IMG/VR virus record: IMGVR_UViG_3300046642_000521
Coordinates: 1-24,227 of that record
Length of the DNA stretch: 24,227 bases
Reading direction: 5' to 3' (one strand)
From: a virus
Shown: positions 7,059 through 16,584 of the stretch, piece after piece
Numbering within the stretch: position 1 is the first letter of the stretch
Layout: each line of letters opens with the position of its first letter
Translations under genes and position numbers: made by a program
Notes under the pieces: generated by a model
Databases searched by the model: none
Told to the model about the DNA's origin: nothing
What the model saw: the letters and a program-made list of their open reading frames with translations, nothing else

Positions 7059-7769
7059 ATGTCATTGTTGACGGTTGTTAGGGATGTTTGCACGAGTGTC
7101 GGGGCGGCAATCCCGACATCCGTGTTTTCTGCAATCACTAGCAACCGCACAATGGCGGAGATGCTTTCGCTCGCCAACGAGATGGCACAGCGCATCGCCT
7201 ACGACAGCCGCGAATGGCAGACGCTCAAGGCGGTGCAGACTTACACCGGCGATGGCGTCAAAATAGATTTCGATCTTCCGCAAAACTTTAAACGCATGCT
7301 GCTCACCGCGCAGGTGTGGCGATCGATCACCACGCAATACCCCATGCGGTTCTATCCAGATCTGAATGATTGGATGCACCGCCGCATGCGCGGTTATTTC
7401 GACAGCCACGGCGAGTGGACGATCTATGGCAATCAGATGCACATTCATCCGCCGATGCCTGCCGGCGTGACTGCGACGTTTGCCTACATGGATAAAAACT
7501 GTGTTTCGCTCGCGAGCGGCGGCGCCAACGACAGCTTCTTGACTGATAACGACAGCTTTCTGTTGGGCGATCGCCTGCTCAAGCTTGGAATGATCTGGCA
7601 ATGGAAGGCTCAGAAGGGATCTCCTTACGCCGAGGATCTGGGATCCTTTGGCGATGCCATGCTGATCGCCATGGGCAACGACAGCCCGTCGCCAATCATC
7701 GTGGACAGGCTTCCTATTTCTGCTGCTGTCGTTTCCTCTACCGTTGACTTTCCGGTGCCAGTGCCATGA
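7059..7769 (+). CDS. Head-tail adaptor-like protein, P22 gp4 / T7 gp11 type (236 aa)
   Basis: The ATG at 7059 lies 3 bases after the preceding stop. The N-terminus (SLLTVVRDVCTSVGAAIP, then SNRTMAEMLSLANEMAQRIA) is a helical bundle of the sort seen in podophage adaptor/tail-accessory proteins that ring the portal exit. After it, a repeating strand region (FDLPQNFKRMLLTAQVWRS) and then helices (DRLLKLGMIWQWKAQKG followed by PYAEDLGSFGDAM) match the layout of this family: helix, small beta domain with Trp-rich surface, long helix with WxWK. Its length fits. The gene overlaps the nozzle gene by 4 bases (ATGA), as expected for proteins assembled in sequence on the portal. Assignment is by pattern and synteny. 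Confidence 0.8.
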   Translation: MSLLTVVRDVCTSVGAAIPTSVFSAITSNRTMAEMLSLANEMAQRIAYDSREWQTLKAVQTYTGDGVKIDFDLPQNFKRMLLTAQVWRSITTQYPMRFYPDLNDWMHRRMRGYFDSHGEWTIYGNQMHIHPPMPAGVTATFAYMDKNCVSLASGGANDSFLTDNDSFLLGDRLLKLGMIWQWKAQKGSPYAEDLGSFGDAMLIAMGNDSPSPIIVDRLPISAAVVSSTVDFPVPVP

Positions 7770-9391
7770 GCATTTACCAGGCATTCAAGCGTCAACAGGT
7801 ACCGGCGCAAGCAGCGCAACAGCTGAAGACTGTGACAATCCCGGCGCCGACGCGCGGCATCATCATGAACGAAAACTATACGTTCATGCAGCCTGGTGGT
7901 GCGATTGTTTCAGACAATTGGATACCAACCATGCGCGGTGTGAAGCTGCGCGGTGGTTGCTCGCGCTGGTGTGTTTTGCCAGACGTCAGCCCGATCATCT
8001 CGGGATTTGAATACAAGAGCGCAACTGACGAACGCATGTTCGCAGCCCAGCTCGACAAATTGTATGACGTGACCAACTCAGGCGCCCCTGTGTTGGTTAA
8101 GTCTGGGCAGACATCCGGCAATTACAGCGCCGCGCCATTGTTCAATCAAGGCGGCGATTGGATGGTGGTAGTTAACGATGCCGGTGACTTTCCGCTGAGG
8201 TTTGACGGCGCAACGTGGACAACACTGAATGCCAGCCAGATCACTGGTCCGGTGGGATCGGCGGTCGAGCACGGTCGCAACCTTTCCTACGTTTGGAAAT
8301 ATCGCAATCGGCTGTTCTTCATCGAAAAAGAAAGCATGAATGCCTGGTACCTAGACATCAATGCCGTACAAGGCGCGTTACAATTAATTCCGCTATCTGG
8401 GTCCGCCACTAAAGGCGGTAAGCTTGTGTTTGGCGCCGTCTGGTCAATCGATGCCGGTGACGGTGTCGATGACAAGTGCGTGTTTTTCACCAGTGAGGGT
8501 GAAGCAATAATCTTCAGCGGCAGCAACCCATCTGACATCAGCAACTGGCGCCAGGAAGGTCGCTACAGCGTCAGCAGGCCGATGGGGATGAATGCTCACA
8601 TACCGATCGGCGGCGATCTGCTTATCGCTTGCGTCGATGGCATCATTCCGCTTTCGCAGGCCATCACCAAAACATTCGAGCAGCTCGAACTGGCTGCCGT
8701 CACGCGCACCATCAAGCCGCTATGGCGTGAGATGGCTGCCACGCGCAACACTTTCCCATGGTCAATGAAAAAATGGGACGAGTGGGGTGGCACCTATGTG
8801 ACATGGCCTGGAGGATCTCCAGGTTCTCAGTATGTCGGCGTTATCAACAGCGCCACTGGCGCGTGGGGCCGTATCGTTGGCTATGACGCGCTGTGTTTTA
8901 TGTACTGCTTCCGGCGTGTGTTCTTTGGCACCCAAAAGGGCATCGTCATGCAGGCCGAGCGCACTGGCTACGATGACGGCATTCCATACACGGCAACGCT
9001 GGTCGGTGGCTGGGAGATGTTTCAGCAAGCGCCGGCGACTGTGGTCTGGCATCAGGCGCGCGCAGCGTTTTTGTCGGCGCCAAGCGAACCGTTCCAGCCG
9101 CAGCTTGCGGCTTGTACTGACTACGTCATCAAGGTTCCTCCGGCACCGCCGGCCGGCCCAGATCCTGGTACGCCAGACGTCTGGGATCAGGGCCTGTGGG
9201 ACAGCGCCAAGTGGGATCAGGCGTCGACGCTGTTTAGTCCGGTGGTGAAAAACACTGGCTGGGTGTCGATCGGAGAGGTGGGCTTTTCTCACGCGCCGAT
9301 CTGTCAGGTGACGGTCGCGCAGCAAGGCAACCCAAATGTCGAATTGGTTTCGATCGCAGCAACATTCGAGCGCCTGGGCGTCAACGTCTGA
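7766..9391 (+). CDS. Tail nozzle / DNA-stabilisation hub protein, beta-propeller-like (541 aa)
   Basis: The start overlaps the adaptor stop as ATGA. The protein is beta-rich throughout, with tryptophan-containing repeats (NGGAxxxxNWxPTMRGVKLRGG-like start; NQGGDWMVVVNDAG; RFDGATWTTLN; WKYRNRLFFIEKES; TYVTWPGG), matching the propeller-type nozzle proteins that cap the podophage tail (P22 gp10 and T7 gp12 groups). The N-terminal 'PGGAIVSDNWIPTMRGVKLRGG' style, read in parts, is the most recognisable part. Near residue 460-485 there is a Pro-rich linker followed by WDQGLWDSAKWDQ, leading into a last strand domain. The role would be to extend the portal channel and retain packaged DNA until ejection. 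The exact subgroup cannot be fixed without structural comparison. Confidence 0.75.
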   Translation: MSIYQAFKRQQVPAQAAQQLKTVTIPAPTRGIIMNENYTFMQPGGAIVSDNWIPTMRGVKLRGGCSRWCVLPDVSPIISGFEYKSATDERMFAAQLDKLYDVTNSGAPVLVKSGQTSGNYSAAPLFNQGGDWMVVVNDAGDFPLRFDGATWTTLNASQITGPVGSAVEHGRNLSYVWKYRNRLFFIEKESMNAWYLDINAVQGALQLIPLSGSATKGGKLVFGAVWSIDAGDGVDDKCVFFTSEGEAIIFSGSNPSDISNWRQEGRYSVSRPMGMNAHIPIGGDLLIACVDGIIPLSQAITKTFEQLELAAVTRTIKPLWREMAATRNTFPWSMKKWDEWGGTYVTWPGGSPGSQYVGVINSATGAWGRIVGYDALCFMYCFRRVFFGTQKGIVMQAERTGYDDGIPYTATLVGGWEMFQQAPATVVWHQARAAFLSAPSEPFQPQLAACTDYVIKVPPAPPAGPDPGTPDVWDQGLWDSAKWDQASTLFSPVVKNTGWVSIGEVGFSHAPICQVTVAQQGNPNVELVSIAATFERLGVNV

Positions 9392-9888: not shown

Positions 9889-10368
9889 ATGCTTCAGTAT
9901 CTGTACGGGCACGATGCAATGGTGGCGAAATTTGTTTCGCAGCTGGTGCCGCATTGCCATCGAGGCTTCCCCGATACGGCGCGCGGCATTGGTGTGCTCA
10001 ACGAAGACGGCATCCTGATCGGCGGCCTCGTCTATCACAACTACGACGAAGACAGCGGCCTGATCGAATTGAGTGGCGCCGCCATCGATCCACACTGGCT
10101 GATGCGCGGCACGATCGAGCGCATGTACCGCTATCCCTTCATCACATGCGGCTGCCAGATGCTCGTGCAGAGAACGCCGATCGAGAATGAGCGGCTGCTG
10201 CGTCAGCTCGCTGTGTACGATTATACGTTTATCAAAGTGCCGAGGATGTTTGGTCGCGGCAAGGACGGCGTCCTGTGCCTGCTGACCGCCGAGGCTTGGG
10301 CTGACAATCGCTTTAACAAACGGTTCAAGCATCACCTGACGCAAGATGCTCTGGAGGAAGCAGCATGA
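9889..10368 (+). CDS. GNAT-fold-like phage protein (159 aa)
   Basis: The ATG is one base after the preceding stop. The layout resembles the small GNAT-like proteins found among podophage tail/internal virion genes: an N-terminal helix, then paired strands (GIGVLNEDGILIGGLVYHN and GLIELSGAAIDP), then a helix where acetyl-CoA would bind (WLMRGTIERMYRYPF), then a strand (CQMLVQRT), an 'N-E-R-L-L' helix and a final domain. The classical Q/R-x-x-G-x-G/A acetyl-CoA loop is not visible; RGTIER at that place is a weak match, so catalytic activity is doubtful. T7 gp13, a virion protein, has been compared with this fold, but the relation here is inferred. The stop overlaps the next start as ATGA-type coupling. 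Confidence 0.7.
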   Translation: MLQYLYGHDAMVAKFVSQLVPHCHRGFPDTARGIGVLNEDGILIGGLVYHNYDEDSGLIELSGAAIDPHWLMRGTIERMYRYPFITCGCQMLVQRTPIENERLLRQLAVYDYTFIKVPRMFGRGKDGVLCLLTAEAWADNRFNKRFKHHLTQDALEEAA

Positions 10369-10838
10369 TTGATTATTCAAACCCGCAAGGCGTTGGCGCC
10401 ACTGCGATGCCAACGGGGCCTGCTACCGCCGGCGCAGATCAACAGCGTAACGCCATCACCCAAGCATTGATGCGCGTTGCTAACCCGCCACCCAACACCG
10501 GAATGCCTCAGCAGGGGCCTGGTTACGGTGGAATGCGGCCAGATCTGTCGCGGCCGCCAAATGTGTTGGGACCGACAATGCCTGGGCCACAGGATCCGCT
10601 GAATGCCGCCGGCGCTATGCCTGGTGCTCAACCTGGCGGGATCATGCAGCAAGCCGGCATGGCGCCGACAGCGTTGGCGCGCCCGCAAGTGCCGCCGCAA
10701 GTCATGCCACCCTCGCCGGCGAGCGGAATGCCGCAAGGTCCGCAGCCAAACGTGCAGCAATCACTTGGGCAGGGTCCGTTGATACAGCCGCCAAACGCCA
10801 ACCTTATGCCGCCAGGATTAAACCCAGGAAACTACTGA
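10365..10838 (+). CDS. Pro/Gly/Gln-rich small virion-type protein (157 aa)
   Basis: The start overlaps the GNAT-like gene by 4 bases, with a GGAGGAAGCAGC ribosome site just upstream. After about 25 residues comes a short helix with RNAITQALM, then a long low-complexity segment rich in Pro, Gly, Met and Gln (about 50-157) with no predicted fold. The same RNAITQAL peptide ends the 457-aa ejection protein about 6 kb downstream. Small disordered proteins in this position are often ejected or internal virion proteins. No enzymatic motif is seen. Function unknown. Confidence 0.65.
   Translation: MIDYSNPQGVGATAMPTGPATAGADQQRNAITQALMRVANPPPNTGMPQQGPGYGGMRPDLSRPPNVLGPTMPGPQDPLNAAGAMPGAQPGGIMQQAGMAPTALARPQVPPQVMPPSPASGMPQGPQPNVQQSLGQGPLIQPPNANLMPPGLNPGNY
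10445..10469 (+). repeat. 25-bp near-direct repeat, copy 1
   Basis: This stretch matches 16536-16560 at 23 of 25 bases. Both copies are read in the same phase and encode R-N-A-I-T-Q-A-L; the two differences (CAA/CAG and TTG/CTG) are silent. The pattern therefore points to a conserved peptide or a small gene-conversion or duplication event. Confidence 0.7.
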
Positions 10839-10839
10839 C

Positions 10840-12318
10840 ATGGGTAAGTCGCAGCCATCGCCGCCGCCGGCACCTAATCCCGTCGACACTGCGCGCGCCT
10901 CGACATCGACCAATGTCGCGACGGCGATCACTAATGCGTTCTTGAACAACACTAACCAGAACACGCCTGACGGATCTCTGCGCTACGACCAGACCGACAC
11001 TTACAATTGGGTGGATCCGTACACCGGCACCAACATCAGTATTCCCAGGTTTACGGCGACACAGACGCTGTCGCCAGCGCAGCAGGCAATCCAAGATCAG
11101 GGCAATACAGCCAAAGTTAACTTGGCTGGTTTGGCCGCCAACCAGAGCGACCGTTTAAGCAAGCTGCTTGGCAGTGAAATCAATTTGGGTAACGCGCCAG
11201 ATGCCGGTCAGGCCAGCAGCATTACCGGCATCCCGCAAGCAGCTACGACGTTTGGTGACGTAGGTCAGCAGCAGTCTACGTTTGATCAAAGTGGAGCTGC
11301 GTCTGCCGGCAACATTCAAAGCACATACGGACCAAGCGACAATTTCAGTGCCGATCGACAGAACGTGCAGGACGCGCTGATGGCGCGGATCAATCCGCAG
11401 CTTGCCGTTGAGAAAGACCAGCTCACGCAGCAGCTCGCTGATCAGGGCATTCGTTATGGATCGCAGGCCTATCAGTCCGCGATGGACAACTACAATCGTC
11501 AGTCCAACGACGCTCGCTTCTCAGCCATCGGTCAGGCGGGACAAGAGCAGCAGCGCATGATGGACATGGCTGCGCAGAAGGCCGGCTTCCAGAACGCGGC
11601 GCAACAACAGGCCTACACGCAATCGCAACAGACCGGCCAGTTCGCCAACCAGGCACAGCAGGAAAACTTCCGGCAAGCTGGCGCGCGCGCAGACTATTCC
11701 AACGCCGGATTGGCGCAGCAGGTCGCGCAAGCGCAGACCGGCTTCAACGCCGAAAACATGGCGCGCAATCAGTACATGAACGAGCAGTACGCGCTGCGCA
11801 ATCAACCAATCAATGAGATCAGCTCGCTGTTGTCTGGCTCGCAAATCAACAACCCGAATTTCGTGAACACGCCGAACAACCAGATCCCGACCACTGACGT
11901 CGCTGGCTTGATCAACAATCGTTTCAGCCAGGACATGAGCATCTATCAGCAGGAAAGTCAGAACTACAATCAGCAGCAAGCCGGCATGTACGGAATGATT
12001 GGCGGCATTCTGGGCGGCGGTCTTGGCCTGATGAAGTCAGACGTGCGCGAGAAAGAAAACATCACCAAGGTTGGCAGCATCTTGCGGCCACATGCGATCG
12101 ACGTGGACGCCACCGGCGGCGGCTACAAGCCAATGAAGAAAGACGCAGACGAACTGCCGATCTATTCGTACAGCTTCAAGAAAGATCCGACCGGCGCGCG
12201 GCGCCTTGGCCCGATGGCGCAGGACGTAGAGAAGATCGACCCGACCGCCGTGCTCGAGCACCGCGGCATCAAATACATCAACAAAGCAAAACTGGGTTCA
12301 GTTTTGGGGATGGCATGA
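10840..12318 (+). CDS. Gln-rich virion/ejection-type protein with C-terminal peptidase S74 autoprocessing domain (492 aa)
   Basis: The ATG follows the previous stop by one base with an AGGAAA site. Residues 1-100 are Pro/Thr/Asn-rich. Residues about 180-330 form long helices rich in Gln, Ala and Asn (QQQRMM-, NAAQQQAYTQ-like runs), as in internal virion proteins. A Gly-rich hydrophobic stretch (GMYGMIGGILGGGLGLM) precedes a domain starting at Ser400: SDVREKENI, then LPIYSYSFKKD, GPMAQDVEK and AVLEHRGIKYI. This is the intramolecular chaperone/peptidase S74 signature, with the Ser400-Lys405 dyad spacing (S-x4-K) of endosialidase and fibre chaperones. Self-cleavage before Ser400 would release a mature protein ending in the hydrophobic Gly-rich segment. 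S74 domains normally fold trimeric fibres, so the carrier could be a fibre rather than an ejection protein. Confidence 0.8.
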   Translation: MGKSQPSPPPAPNPVDTARASTSTNVATAITNAFLNNTNQNTPDGSLRYDQTDTYNWVDPYTGTNISIPRFTATQTLSPAQQAIQDQGNTAKVNLAGLAANQSDRLSKLLGSEINLGNAPDAGQASSITGIPQAATTFGDVGQQQSTFDQSGAASAGNIQSTYGPSDNFSADRQNVQDALMARINPQLAVEKDQLTQQLADQGIRYGSQAYQSAMDNYNRQSNDARFSAIGQAGQEQQRMMDMAAQKAGFQNAAQQQAYTQSQQTGQFANQAQQENFRQAGARADYSNAGLAQQVAQAQTGFNAENMARNQYMNEQYALRNQPINEISSLLSGSQINNPNFVNTPNNQIPTTDVAGLINNRFSQDMSIYQQESQNYNQQQAGMYGMIGGILGGGLGLMKSDVREKENITKVGSILRPHAIDVDATGGGYKPMKKDADELPIYSYSFKKDPTGARRLGPMAQDVEKIDPTAVLEHRGIKYINKAKLGSVLGMA

Positions 12319-12319
12319 C

Positions 12320-15214
12320 ATGGCAGACGACAACACAACAACTGACAGCTCGTTTGGTAGTCTTTTTGGTGGCGGCCAATTGCCATCGATTTTTGGCGGC
12401 AATACGCCACTGACCTATGAGGAGCTGCAGCGGCGCCGCGCGATCGCGCTGGCGTTGGCCTCGAGGCAGAAGGGCTTCCCCAAGAACAAAGGCGAGGGGA
12501 TGACGTACCTGGGCGAGAGCATAGGCAATGCTCTGCAGGGTATCGGCCTCGACATGGCGGAAAAGCGATACCTCGCCCAGCAAGCTGCCATCAGTGGCAA
12601 GCCGATCGATGCAGCTCCAATCCCTGTCGCTCCTAACGGCAAGCCAGCCGTCCTATCGGCTCCACAGAAAACAAGTCAGGCGCCAGCTGCTGTGGAGCCG
12701 GCACCAACAACGACTGCTGACGCCGCTGTTACTCCTGCCAGCATGGCGGCCGCAACCGAGCCGCAAGACGCCCCTGGCGGGGGCGTTCCAGACCTGTCGC
12801 AATTTGCAACGGCGGGATTGACTGCCGGTGATTTCGGTACGCCGGCGCCGCCACCAGCAGAGAGCCCATTTCCAGCGAGTGTGGCATCGCGTTTTTCTGC
12901 CGTTAATGACGTGCTGCCGCCAGCGCAGAGGCCGGTGCCGCCGGTATCAGTCGACCCCAACATGCGGGCGCAGCTGTCTGGCGGCAACAACGCAATCGAT
13001 CCATCGACAATGGCGCAGCCGCAGCTTGCCGCTTTTGCGCGGCCTAGTGGCTCTCCTGTGCCTGCACCTGGGACGCCAATGCCGCCACCGCGGCCGCCTA
13101 TGCCGCGTGATCTCGCTAACGCAACGCCGGAAGAGGGTGGGTTCAACGCGATCGACGCCGGCGCCGATCTGATGACTGCGCGCAAGCGGTCGATTGGCGG
13201 CATTGAAAGCGGTGGCGCTAAAGATCCGTATTCTCTGGTGACGAATACTGGGAGAGGCGACTACGTTTATGGAAAATATCAAGTCGCCGGAAAAGAAATC
13301 CCAGCTCTGACGGAAAAATATCTTGGTAAGGCGATGACGCCAAACCAATTCAAAAATAATCCAGAAGCACAAGACGCAGTCTTCACCGGTGAGTTTGGTA
13401 CGCGCCTGGTCGGCAAGTATGGCGAAGAGGGCGCCGCAAGGGCTTGGTATGCCGGCGAGCGCGGCATGCAAAATCCAAATGCTACGGACAGGTTTGGCAG
13501 GCTGACTGTTAGAGACTATGGCAGACAATATCTTGCCGGCCTGGATCCAAATGCAGCTCCTGATGGCAGCGGTGGTGGCGGGGGTGGTAGCGGAGGCGGT
13601 GTCCCGGCTGTCGCACAGGGTAGCCCTGCCGGACCAGGACCAGGACGCGACGGCATTGCCTTGGCGATGCTGGCGCAGCAGGCGCAACAGCCACAGCAGG
13701 CCTCACCAGAAGAGAATGCACCAGATGCGCGGCTGCTCGAGATTGCTGCCGGCAATACCCGCAGGCCAGGATCCCCATTCCGCGCCACAGCATCATTGGA
13801 CGCTGGCAGGGCCGGCGTTGTTAGCGATGCACCACAGCCTGGTCTAAGCCCGATGGGATCTCTGGATCCCACCGCATCAATCAATGCGCGCCGTGATGCC
13901 ATCACTGGTGCATCCATGGGTCAGCCACCTGCCACGGTACCGGGGGTGCCGCAGCCGGACCCTACTCAGTCGGGGCCAACAGCCCCGGCGACCTCTGGGG
14001 TGGATTTGACGGGGGGTTCTTCTAACCCACCGACCGTTGTGGACATGGCGCCGGCGCCGCCGATGGGCGCCACGGCGCAGGCTGGCGTTCCGTTGGGTGG
14101 CTATCCAAGCGTACCGCAAGCGCGCGCGCCGCAAGTGCCGCCAGGACAACTGGCACCTCCGCCAACGTCAACCATCGAACCACGGCCGCCAGCGCCGCAA
14201 GTTGGCGTTGAGGTAGCTCCGCGTCAGCTGAAAGAACCGGTGTACCCAACGATGATGCCCGCATCTCCAAACGAACTAGAGGCACAGAAAATACTAAGTA
14301 ACCCAGCTCTTGCGGGTACGCCTGCTCTTGCTGCTCGCGCTAAAGCCCTTGCAGACATTGGCGCTAGACAGCGTGAGCAGTACAACGCAGAGCTACTGGA
14401 TCGGTATACACGAGACAAAACTGCCTGGGATGCTCAAGAGGCCGCTAGGCGCGAAGAGGCAACACCTAAAGGTCAACGAGAAGCAGCGACCGGAAGGCTC
14501 GAGCTGCAGGGCAAGCAATACGACGCCGATGTGAAACGCTGGCTTGGCGGCCAAGATGTGAACACTGTCTATGCCGGCCTTGATGCAGACAAAGCCGAAG
14601 CAACCAAAAGCAATAGCCTGTTGCGGCAGGCTGCCATCGTCAGAGAAGCTATTAACAATGGTATCATAACCGGACTAGGTGCAGATCAAAAATTAAACAT
14701 AGCGAAGCTGCACGCATGGATGTCTAAAAATCCCGGTGCCGGAGACGAGGCTTCCAATACTGAAATGTTTAAGGCTGCAGCTGACGCAATGTTGGCTACC
14801 GGTGTTGAAACTATCCGCGGCGGTGCAGGCAAGGTGGGTCTTGGCAACAGGGTCAGCCCGACAGAACTTGATATCGCCCGCGGCGGTGTTGGTGCTGATC
14901 CAACGTATCAATTGAGCACGATCAAGAAATTGATTGCACAGAATGAACGTGATGCGCGTGAACGTCTAAATACTTACGAAGATAAAATCGGTAAGGTGCT
15001 TGACGGTCCTCTCGCTAATGCAAGGGCTCGCTATGAAATCACCAACTATGAAACGGCGCCAGCGGATGCAATCAAAAAGCTAATAGAGCTGGACAGTCAG
15101 AAATATCCTGGTGTGCGTCAGCACTTTGATAGCGTCTACGGTACTGGTGCAGCAGATCTAGAGTTGGCTCGCGCTGAACGCGCGGCGCGGCGAAGGGGAG
15201 CTACATCCCCATGA
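12320..15214 (+). CDS. Large internal virion protein with lytic transglycosylase-like domain (964 aa)
   Basis: The ATG lies one base after the previous stop. The N-terminus has a helix (ELQRRRAIALALASRQKG, then GEGMTYLGESIGNALQG) typical of podophage ejection proteins. Residues 95-280 are Pro/Ala-rich linker. Residues about 280-412 resemble an SLT-type lysozyme fold: RSIGGIESGG with candidate catalytic Glu296, then YGKYQVAG, a second helix region with FTGEFG and a late WYAGERGM segment. A Gly/Ser linker (417-430) and another long Pro-rich region lead to a charged helical C-terminal part (about 640-964). Such proteins enter the envelope at infection, open peptidoglycan and help form the DNA channel. 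The stop overlaps the next start (ATGA). The fold is inferred from motif layout. Confidence 0.8.
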   Translation: MADDNTTTDSSFGSLFGGGQLPSIFGGNTPLTYEELQRRRAIALALASRQKGFPKNKGEGMTYLGESIGNALQGIGLDMAEKRYLAQQAAISGKPIDAAPIPVAPNGKPAVLSAPQKTSQAPAAVEPAPTTTADAAVTPASMAAATEPQDAPGGGVPDLSQFATAGLTAGDFGTPAPPPAESPFPASVASRFSAVNDVLPPAQRPVPPVSVDPNMRAQLSGGNNAIDPSTMAQPQLAAFARPSGSPVPAPGTPMPPPRPPMPRDLANATPEEGGFNAIDAGADLMTARKRSIGGIESGGAKDPYSLVTNTGRGDYVYGKYQVAGKEIPALTEKYLGKAMTPNQFKNNPEAQDAVFTGEFGTRLVGKYGEEGAARAWYAGERGMQNPNATDRFGRLTVRDYGRQYLAGLDPNAAPDGSGGGGGGSGGGVPAVAQGSPAGPGPGRDGIALAMLAQQAQQPQQASPEENAPDARLLEIAAGNTRRPGSPFRATASLDAGRAGVVSDAPQPGLSPMGSLDPTASINARRDAITGASMGQPPATVPGVPQPDPTQSGPTAPATSGVDLTGGSSNPPTVVDMAPAPPMGATAQAGVPLGGYPSVPQARAPQVPPGQLAPPPTSTIEPRPPAPQVGVEVAPRQLKEPVYPTMMPASPNELEAQKILSNPALAGTPALAARAKALADIGARQREQYNAELLDRYTRDKTAWDAQEAARREEATPKGQREAATGRLELQGKQYDADVKRWLGGQDVNTVYAGLDADKAEATKSNSLLRQAAIVREAINNGIITGLGADQKLNIAKLHAWMSKNPGAGDEASNTEMFKAAADAMLATGVETIRGGAGKVGLGNRVSPTELDIARGGVGADPTYQLSTIKKLIAQNERDARERLNTYEDKIGKVLDGPLANARARYEITNYETAPADAIKKLIELDSQKYPGVRQHFDSVYGTGAADLELARAERAARRRGATSP

Positions 15215-16584
15215 GTGATACCTATTCTTTCGACAGCCCCAATCCGTTTATAAAGCCAGATGATGAGAAGCCGCCGGAACAAGCTGCTTCGCCTAATCCG
15301 TTTGTGCAGCAAGGAAAGCTCAACCAACCTTTTGGCGAACTGAAACCATACACCCCGAGCTGGTCGGAATGGGTTGGTAACAAGCTGCAAGATGCCTACA
15401 GCGCATTAGGAGCGGATCCGTATACAGCCGGAAAGTTTGGCCGAGGCACACGCGACGTGTTGGGGTTGACGCCAGCCGGCCCATTGATGGCCGGGGCCGA
15501 TGTACAGCACTACGCTAACCAGGGCGATTACGGTAAGGCGGCCATCAGCTCAATCGGTGTGATACCTGGTGCAAGCTTAGGCAAGGCCGCGTTGAGTGAA
15601 GGCGTCAATGCCGCAACCAGGATCCCGCTCAACTTTGCTGAGAACCCCGCGCGCGAGTTTCTGGCATCGCCATCAAGTGATCAGCTTAAGGCCAGCGGCA
15701 TTCAGCGGCTTAATGAGTTTGTGAAATCACCGCAGATCTGGCCGTCAGCTGATGCGACACAGCTGGCGTCAAGCATGAAGGATAGGTTTGGTCAGATAAG
15801 CCAGTTTGACATCCCTGGATCTGCGCCGTTGGCACACAAGTCTGTCGATGTCTTTGCCGAGAAAGCAAAAACTCAACCGTTCATTACACCGGAGGACATC
15901 AATCAATTGCGCTTTGGCTTAAGCCAAGCCGGCAAGAAGGGGGAAGCTGCCGGCCAAGAAGGCAAGACGATGCTCTACGATTATCTAAAGAGCACCGGAG
16001 ATCCTAGCGTAGAAAAGTTTGTTGGAGATTATGGAGCTGGCAGCCGCGGTGCGATCACAGATACCATCTTGTCGAGAGGATCTGGCGCCACCGGCGATGA
16101 AGGAAAATCTATAGCTGCACAAACGCGAGCCTTAGTTGAAAACAAAAGCAAGCGACTTCGCGGGTTTACTGACGAACAGGTTGCCGCAATAGACAAGGCG
16201 TATCACGGCACACCTCTTATCAATTCTCTTGATACAGCAGCTAACCTTGTTGGCGGTAAGACGCTGTCTGGACAGCTTATTCGCGGTACTCTCGCCGGCG
16301 GACCTGGTGCTGTTGCTGCCTTTTTTGGCGGCCCTGCTGTAGCGCCAGCGGCTGCACTAATTCCAGAAACGGTCGCCGGTGGTCTTAGATATGGATCTGG
16401 TGTAGCTCGCCGTAGTGCCGTTGAAAAAGCCGGCAATATGGTGCGCCAGGACTCACCCCTCTTTCTCGAGCGGCAAGCTGCAGACAATGCAAACCCGCTT
16501 TATTACCCAGGAACACCAGCGCAGAATTTTGTTATGCGTAACGCCATCACCCAGGCACTGGTTAATCAGAATAGGGGGCAGTAA
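15211..16584 (+). CDS. Internal virion / ejection protein (457 aa)
   Basis: The start overlaps the transglycosylase gene as ATGA. The first 45 residues contain two copies of a short motif (SPNPFIKP and SPNPFVQQ), followed by helices and a Gly/Ala-rich hydrophobic region at about 345-390 (LAGGPGAVAAFFGGPAVAPA), the kind of segment that could enter or cross the inner membrane. The middle is charged and helical (TPEDINQLRFGLSQAGKKGE). The C-terminus ends in RNAITQALVNQNRGQ, sharing RNAITQAL with the 157-aa protein upstream. Membership of the ejection apparatus is inferred from its place after the transglycosylase protein and before the fibres, and from its mixed helical/hydrophobic nature. The stop overlaps the fibre gene as TAATG. 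Confidence 0.7.
   Translation: MSDTYSFDSPNPFIKPDDEKPPEQAASPNPFVQQGKLNQPFGELKPYTPSWSEWVGNKLQDAYSALGADPYTAGKFGRGTRDVLGLTPAGPLMAGADVQHYANQGDYGKAAISSIGVIPGASLGKAALSEGVNAATRIPLNFAENPAREFLASPSSDQLKASGIQRLNEFVKSPQIWPSADATQLASSMKDRFGQISQFDIPGSAPLAHKSVDVFAEKAKTQPFITPEDINQLRFGLSQAGKKGEAAGQEGKTMLYDYLKSTGDPSVEKFVGDYGAGSRGAITDTILSRGSGATGDEGKSIAAQTRALVENKSKRLRGFTDEQVAAIDKAYHGTPLINSLDTAANLVGGKTLSGQLIRGTLAGGPGAVAAFFGGPAVAPAAALIPETVAGGLRYGSGVARRSAVEKAGNMVRQDSPLFLERQAADNANPLYYPGTPAQNFVMRNAITQALVNQNRGQ
16536..16560 (+). repeat. 25-bp near-direct repeat, copy 2
   Basis: It matches 10445-10469 at 23 of 25 bases with two silent differences, and lies a few codons before the end of the 457-aa ejection protein. Here the shared peptide is C-terminal; in the other copy it is near residue 28. 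Confidence 0.7.

Follow-up and report, generated by a model that had tools for sequence, protein, structure and literature searches.

Comparative evidence favours self-trimming of an ejection-slot phage protein that carries a minimal C-terminal S74/ICA domain

The virus record IMGVR_UViG_3300046642_000521, a record of its own whose positions 1 to 24,227 make up the stretch analysed here (the window), contains a gene for a 492-residue protein with a C-terminal S74/ICA domain, located among genes for DNA ejection. Our best reading, which we consider probable from sequence comparisons, is that this is a self-trimming ejection protein. The domain belongs to S74 by sequence, its Ser-Lys dyad is intact, the gene stands in the order known from other podoviruses, and S74 recurs broadly on proteins of ejection families. 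Cleavage is predicted, and is well supported by comparison: the dyad is invariant, in one family homologues lacking S74 often end where the cut would fall, S74 appears to have been gained and lost repeatedly, and in some proteins it is internal. S74 domains on ejection-slot proteins had already been annotated; what is new is the comparative evidence, which favours self-trimming. The gene and its neighbours are as follows.

7766..9391, + strand: nozzle protein (tubular tail B / P22 gp10-like); BLASTP phiGT1 tubeB 38%, E 5e-117
9889..10368, + strand: acetyltransferase-like protein, IVPA homologue (T7 gp13 / P22 gp14 position); BLASTP phiGT1_16 E 1e-22, phrog_4470 E 6e-29
10840..12318, + strand: coding sequence of the ejection-slot virion protein with C-terminal S74/ICA domain, PHROG 6121, 492 aa; PF13884 E 3.3e-8, phrog_6121 E 1.2e-101
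12320..15214, + strand: 964-aa protein starting 1 nt past the S74 gene, candidate second ejection protein; by position, with a weak match to a syntenic protein of Rhizobium phage Y25 (E 6e-4, 62 residues)
15211..16584, + strand: 457-aa protein, candidate third ejection protein; by position only, no family match

The order in the window is thus nozzle, acetyltransferase, S74 gene, two large proteins whose family searches were uninformative, and a tail-fibre-like protein. The same order is found in phiGT1, pCB2047-C, EBPR podovirus 2 and the Rhizobium phages, and also in P22 and T7. The S74 gene stands between the acetyltransferase (gp14 in P22, gp13 in T7) and the later ejection proteins, with one small ORF intervening, and its placement in the first DNA-ejection-protein slot, the position of P22 gp7 and T7 gp14, is supported. 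The initial annotation had put the gene in a nozzle-ejection module, and the matches to the phiGT1 nozzle and IVPA acetyltransferase support this. The slot assignment rests on gene order, because the body of the protein has no significant profile similarity to T7 gp14 or P22 gp7: hhalign comparisons of the body of the window family with these two proteins gave probabilities below 1%. The intervening ORF (10365-10838) encodes 157 residues rich in Pro, Gln and Gly and has no family match. Many podoviruses retain an acetyltransferase-like gene beside the ejection genes. The label 'amidase' of PHROG 5107 for 7766-9391 looks like a mis-annotation, the protein being homologous to the phiGT1 nozzle.

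S74-bearing relatives that occupy this slot belong to DNA-ejection families. We compared three body families, namely that of the window protein (PHROG 6121), a phiM5-like and a P22-gp7/PAE2-like family, the latter two collected by profile. The S74-bearing protein phiM5_27 matches the DNA-ejection family phrog_4287 (E 6.5e-91), and is recorded as detected in the particle proteome. The body of PAE2_13 (PAE2 gp13) matches phrog_598, the P22 gp7 family, with E 5.7e-30. When P22 gp7 was left out of the model, hhalign still linked it to the PAE2-type family (94.8% probability, E 5e-8), and PHROG 598 backs this link independently. A common origin of all three bodies is not claimed; profile comparisons among the families and with T7 gp14 were not significant.

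The ORF 10840-12318 is an uninterrupted translation of 492 codons on the + strand, within which the following parts can be told apart.

10840..12036, + strand: residues 1-399, predicted mature protein, cut before Ser400; from the dyad position, and the C-terminus of the S74-less ctMlz233 aligns at the cut
10972..11070, + strand: residues 45-77, conserved N-terminal two-stranded region with helices on both sides; AlphaFold model pLDDT ~72, alignment A2
11344..11835, + strand: residues 169-332, Gln/Ala-rich body with predicted long helices; AlphaFold model, confidence ~40-80 by block
11977..12036, + strand: residues 380-399, Gly-rich, mildly hydrophobic segment before the predicted cut, G382 and G385 invariant; alignment, pLDDT <50 in the full-length model
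12037..12315, + strand: residues 400-492, minimal S74/ICA domain of 93 residues; Pfam and ejection-slot S74 profile
12037..12039, + strand: codon of Ser400, predicted nucleophile, predicted cleavage immediately before it; invariant in A2 (36 rows) and A6 (68 rows)
12052..12054, + strand: codon of Lys405, predicted general base at Ser+5; invariant, same spacing as MyRF S587/K592 and endoNF S911/K916 (PMC8326128)

A body of Gln-, Ala- and Asn-rich helices had been proposed, and the composition of residues 1-399 (Gln 14.8%, Ala 12.8%, Asn 10.3%) agrees with this, as does the predicted fold: in the full-length AlphaFold model helices predominate, an N-terminal region is two-stranded, the ICA domain is folded better, the linker ahead of Ser400 has low confidence, and the mean pLDDT is 58.9. 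No beta-rich or triple beta-helical body precedes S74 in this model, whose body is of low confidence; a conventional beta-rich fibre body was the outcome which the initial annotation had set against its own proposal. A direct sequence search of the full 492-residue protein against the PDB returned no match at E 10. The isolated S74 domain was modelled with a pLDDT of 71.5, and its best PDB fold matches are MyRF ICA chains with non-significant E values (0.54 and 1.2).

These observations bear on whether the protein is an ordinary trimeric tail fibre or spike with a classical terminal S74 chaperone, as the database name 'tail fiber domain-containing protein' implies. S74 is typical of fibres, and some relatives bear the name tail fibre or tailspike. 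Against this, the predicted body is without a beta-helix, the relatives match DNA-ejection families, and the gene's neighbours are the nozzle and acetyltransferase genes, with separate fibre-like genes further downstream. The Bradyrhizobium prophage ppBeUSDA76-2 has both kinds of S74 protein, and in its separate fibre-like protein the domain is longer, with 108 residues to the end versus 71 in the ejection-slot protein (L103:517-1725, L103:4128-5231). We regard the fibre or spike explanation as very improbable. It must be added that S74 is taken as a sign of fibres or spikes and such proteins are often named so, while the evidence places many of them among the injected phage proteins. In viral structure databases similar proteins are named after the ICA domain. 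In a relative of the window, a further protein encoded downstream (L074:12751-14337) has a weak S74 match that is longer, with ~120 residues to the end; this protein is probably a fibre.

The Pfam family Peptidase_S74 (PF13884) matches residues 437-472 with E 3.3e-8 and 34.1 bits, above the curated cut-off of 22. This match begins at profile position 21 and the dyad lies outside the matched span. Ser400, Asp401 and Lys405 were located in the window protein as the motif SDxxxK, where the initial annotation had placed its Ser400-Lys405 dyad. The ejection-slot S74 profile, which itself contains the window sequence, covers the domain in full, Ser400 included, with i-E 1.5e-27; run over the whole window, it found no second S74. 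Solved ICA domains are matched by it too, 3GUD at E 1e-7 and MyRF 7DC3 at 1.3e-7, their Ser and Lys being in register; the 3GUD chain, from GA-1, starts precisely at the Ser-equivalent residue. Like the ICA domains of the endosialidase endoNF, the GA-1 neck appendage (3GUD) and MyRF (7DC3), the window domain has Lys at Ser+5 and shares the conserved G and A of the GxxAQ region. Its sequence and dyad place it in S74; the full ICA architecture is not claimed.

The dyad is strictly conserved. None of Ser400, Asp401 and Lys405 varies in 36 non-redundant close homologues, and SDxxxK is intact in 107/107 non-redundant S74 domains from the three ejection-slot body families, with Arg at +3 in 93 of the 107. 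The profile that detected these domains does not require the dyad for a match but was built from dyad-bearing domains.

In other respects the domain differs from the classical S74/ICA, in that there is no triple beta-helix upstream, a coiled coil is essentially absent, and the host protein is of ejection type and predicted to be helical. In MyRF, whose nucleophile is S587, the C-terminal coiled coil N670-K705 (Ser+83 to +118) is needed for trimerisation and cleavage, and in endoNF the upstream beta-helix donates an Arg to the reaction (PMC8326128). From Ser400 to the C-terminus the window protein has 93 residues, and the family medians are 63 and 72 in the two related families and 81 in the third; a C-terminal triple coiled coil like that at MyRF Ser+83 to +118 was not found in the window domain. 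A MyRF-type coiled coil is essentially absent from the ejection-slot domains because the stretch from Ser to the end is too short. The ejection-slot S74 is a minimal ICA, without the C-terminal coiled coil and the upstream beta-helix used elsewhere. By analogy with MyRF, whose ICA requires its coiled coil, this speaks against the predicted cleavage. Either the helical body supplies oligomerisation, or cleavage requires none, or no cleavage happens.

The last possibility corresponds to an uncleaved cap: S74 would stay attached and cap the protein for folding or oligomerisation, the two would be packaged and ejected together, and the role of the dyad would be structural. The minimal domain, without the coiled coil that MyRF cleavage needs, speaks for such a cap. 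Invariance of Ser and Lys while neighbouring positions vary is harder to reconcile with it, and so are the repeated loss of S74, with C-termini close to the cut in a single family, and the position of S74 between the body and later segments in fused proteins, both described below. We consider the cap unlikely, though less so than the fibre.

Natural homologues without S74 were compared by the position of their C-termini. In the phiM5-like family 39 such proteins end at a median offset of -1 from the Ser-equivalent, 22 of them within 6 residues. The window's own family has a single S74-less homologue, ctMlz233, which ends at offset 0. P22 gp7 itself ends within six residues of the cut-equivalent, but the S74-less homologues of its family mostly extend ~35 residues beyond it (median +35), and co-termination as a general rule was therefore rejected. 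On the tree of phiM5-family bodies parsimony places 17 changes of S74 state, at least 8 of them on strongly supported branches; these counts are approximate, as this was a quick tree with several long branches. A stand-alone S74 gene adjoining the S74-less genes was not found, and three loci have a fibre-type S74 hit upstream.

S74 is also found inside longer proteins. The environmental phage ct7L0027 encodes a 276-residue ejection-type body followed by S74 and then ~850 residues including an SLT transglycosylase domain. About 56 non-redundant proteins have an internal S74 with hundreds of residues after it, nine of them have two S74 domains, and the dyad is intact in 65/65 internal-type domains; some of these ORFs end at contig ends. 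Among the loci L264-L343 and at L101:3179-6736 there are long single-ORF proteins with an internal S74 behind an ejection-type body. The arrangement resembles MyRF, in which an internal ICA cuts one chain in two (PMC3742443). MyRF differs in being a eukaryotic membrane transcription factor that trimerises via the coiled coil missing in the window domain.

Under the self-trimming reading the protein would be made as a precursor with a self-removing C-terminal S74/ICA domain. Since the domain no longer has a coiled coil of its own, we propose that the small ICA domains come into contact as the helical bodies oligomerise during assembly. Lys405 would then activate Ser400 for attack on the Lys399-Ser400 bond, the 93-residue ICA fragment would be released, and residues 1-399 would remain in the virion and be ejected at infection. 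The tail most likely serves as a temporary assembly chaperone, covering the sticky Gly-rich C-terminus until oligomerisation or packaging, and in the fused relatives an equivalent cut would part the first ejection protein from the downstream segments. The initial annotation had suggested a self-trimming helical virion protein; the dyad, the ends of homologues, the gains and losses and the internal domains lend this comparative support, with cleavage itself a prediction. In a broader form of the idea, to which we give about an even chance, the minimal ICA without coiled coil is a mobile self-release cassette for podovirus ejection proteins. A terminal copy would trim the first ejection protein, internal or doubled copies would divide ejection polyproteins, and cleavage would be licensed by oligomerisation of the helical cargo and not by a beta-helix or coiled coil. 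Confirmed cleavage would add a self-processing step to the maturation of podovirus ejection proteins, would provide an example of an ICA that works without the usual trimer supports, and would explain how fused ejection proteins could separate.

The segment that would become the new C-terminus is Gly-rich (residues 382-399, GMYGMIGGILGGGLGLMK). A mature end of GGILGGGLGLM type had been expected; the Gly-rich segment before the cut is there, but the exact predicted C-terminus is ...GGILGGGLGLMK, with Lys399 as the last residue. Most of the protein's most hydrophobic 19-residue window falls within 382-399 (peak +1.05 on the Kyte-Doolittle scale). S74 could be a pro-domain under which a pore-forming C-terminus stays masked until release. 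This reading agrees with self-trimming and extends it by a membrane role, so that our confidences in the two are not exclusive. No part of the window protein is more hydrophobic than the segment before Ser, in two of the three families this segment exceeds the remaining body in hydrophobicity, and T7 gp14, which occupies the same slot, forms an outer-membrane pore (PMC8954989). On the other hand, the segment is short and Gly-rich, its hydrophobicity is modest, under usual transmembrane values, and homology to T7 gp14 is not detectable. The earlier suggestion of a membrane-penetrating part is thus weakly supported, the segment being only mildly hydrophobic with pLDDT <50 and the body unrelated in detectable sequence to T7 gp14. 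Resting on position and mild hydrophobicity, the pore idea is the weaker one; we think it doubtful, although less so than the uncleaved cap.

It is useful to compare the window protein with its nearest relatives. Sulfitobacter phage phiGT1 gp17 and the S74 structural proteins of Rhizobium phages share with it PHROG 6121, the gene order and the S74 tail, but are shorter, at about 330-340 aa against 492 in the window protein, whose S74 carries an insertion at residues about 416-437. The S74 tail is already annotated in the records of phiGT1 (gp17) and of the Rhizobium phages. S74 in this setting had been thought unusual; this holds relative to textbook fibres, but the domain is widespread in the ejection slot and annotated in several phages. 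The phiGT1 paper treats the internal virion proteins and S74 is not mentioned (PMC10386132); our literature search, which covered few subscription papers, found no discussion of the role of S74 on ejection proteins.

P22 gp7 (phrog_598) occupies the same slot and has a C-terminal Gly-rich hydrophobic stretch, IGGGIGLLGSLF. It differs in having no S74, PAE2 gp13 being the gp7 family plus S74. P22 gp7 is also processed, but at the other end: according to a note in its record (L094:1370-2059) the host's OpdA removes the first 20 residues.
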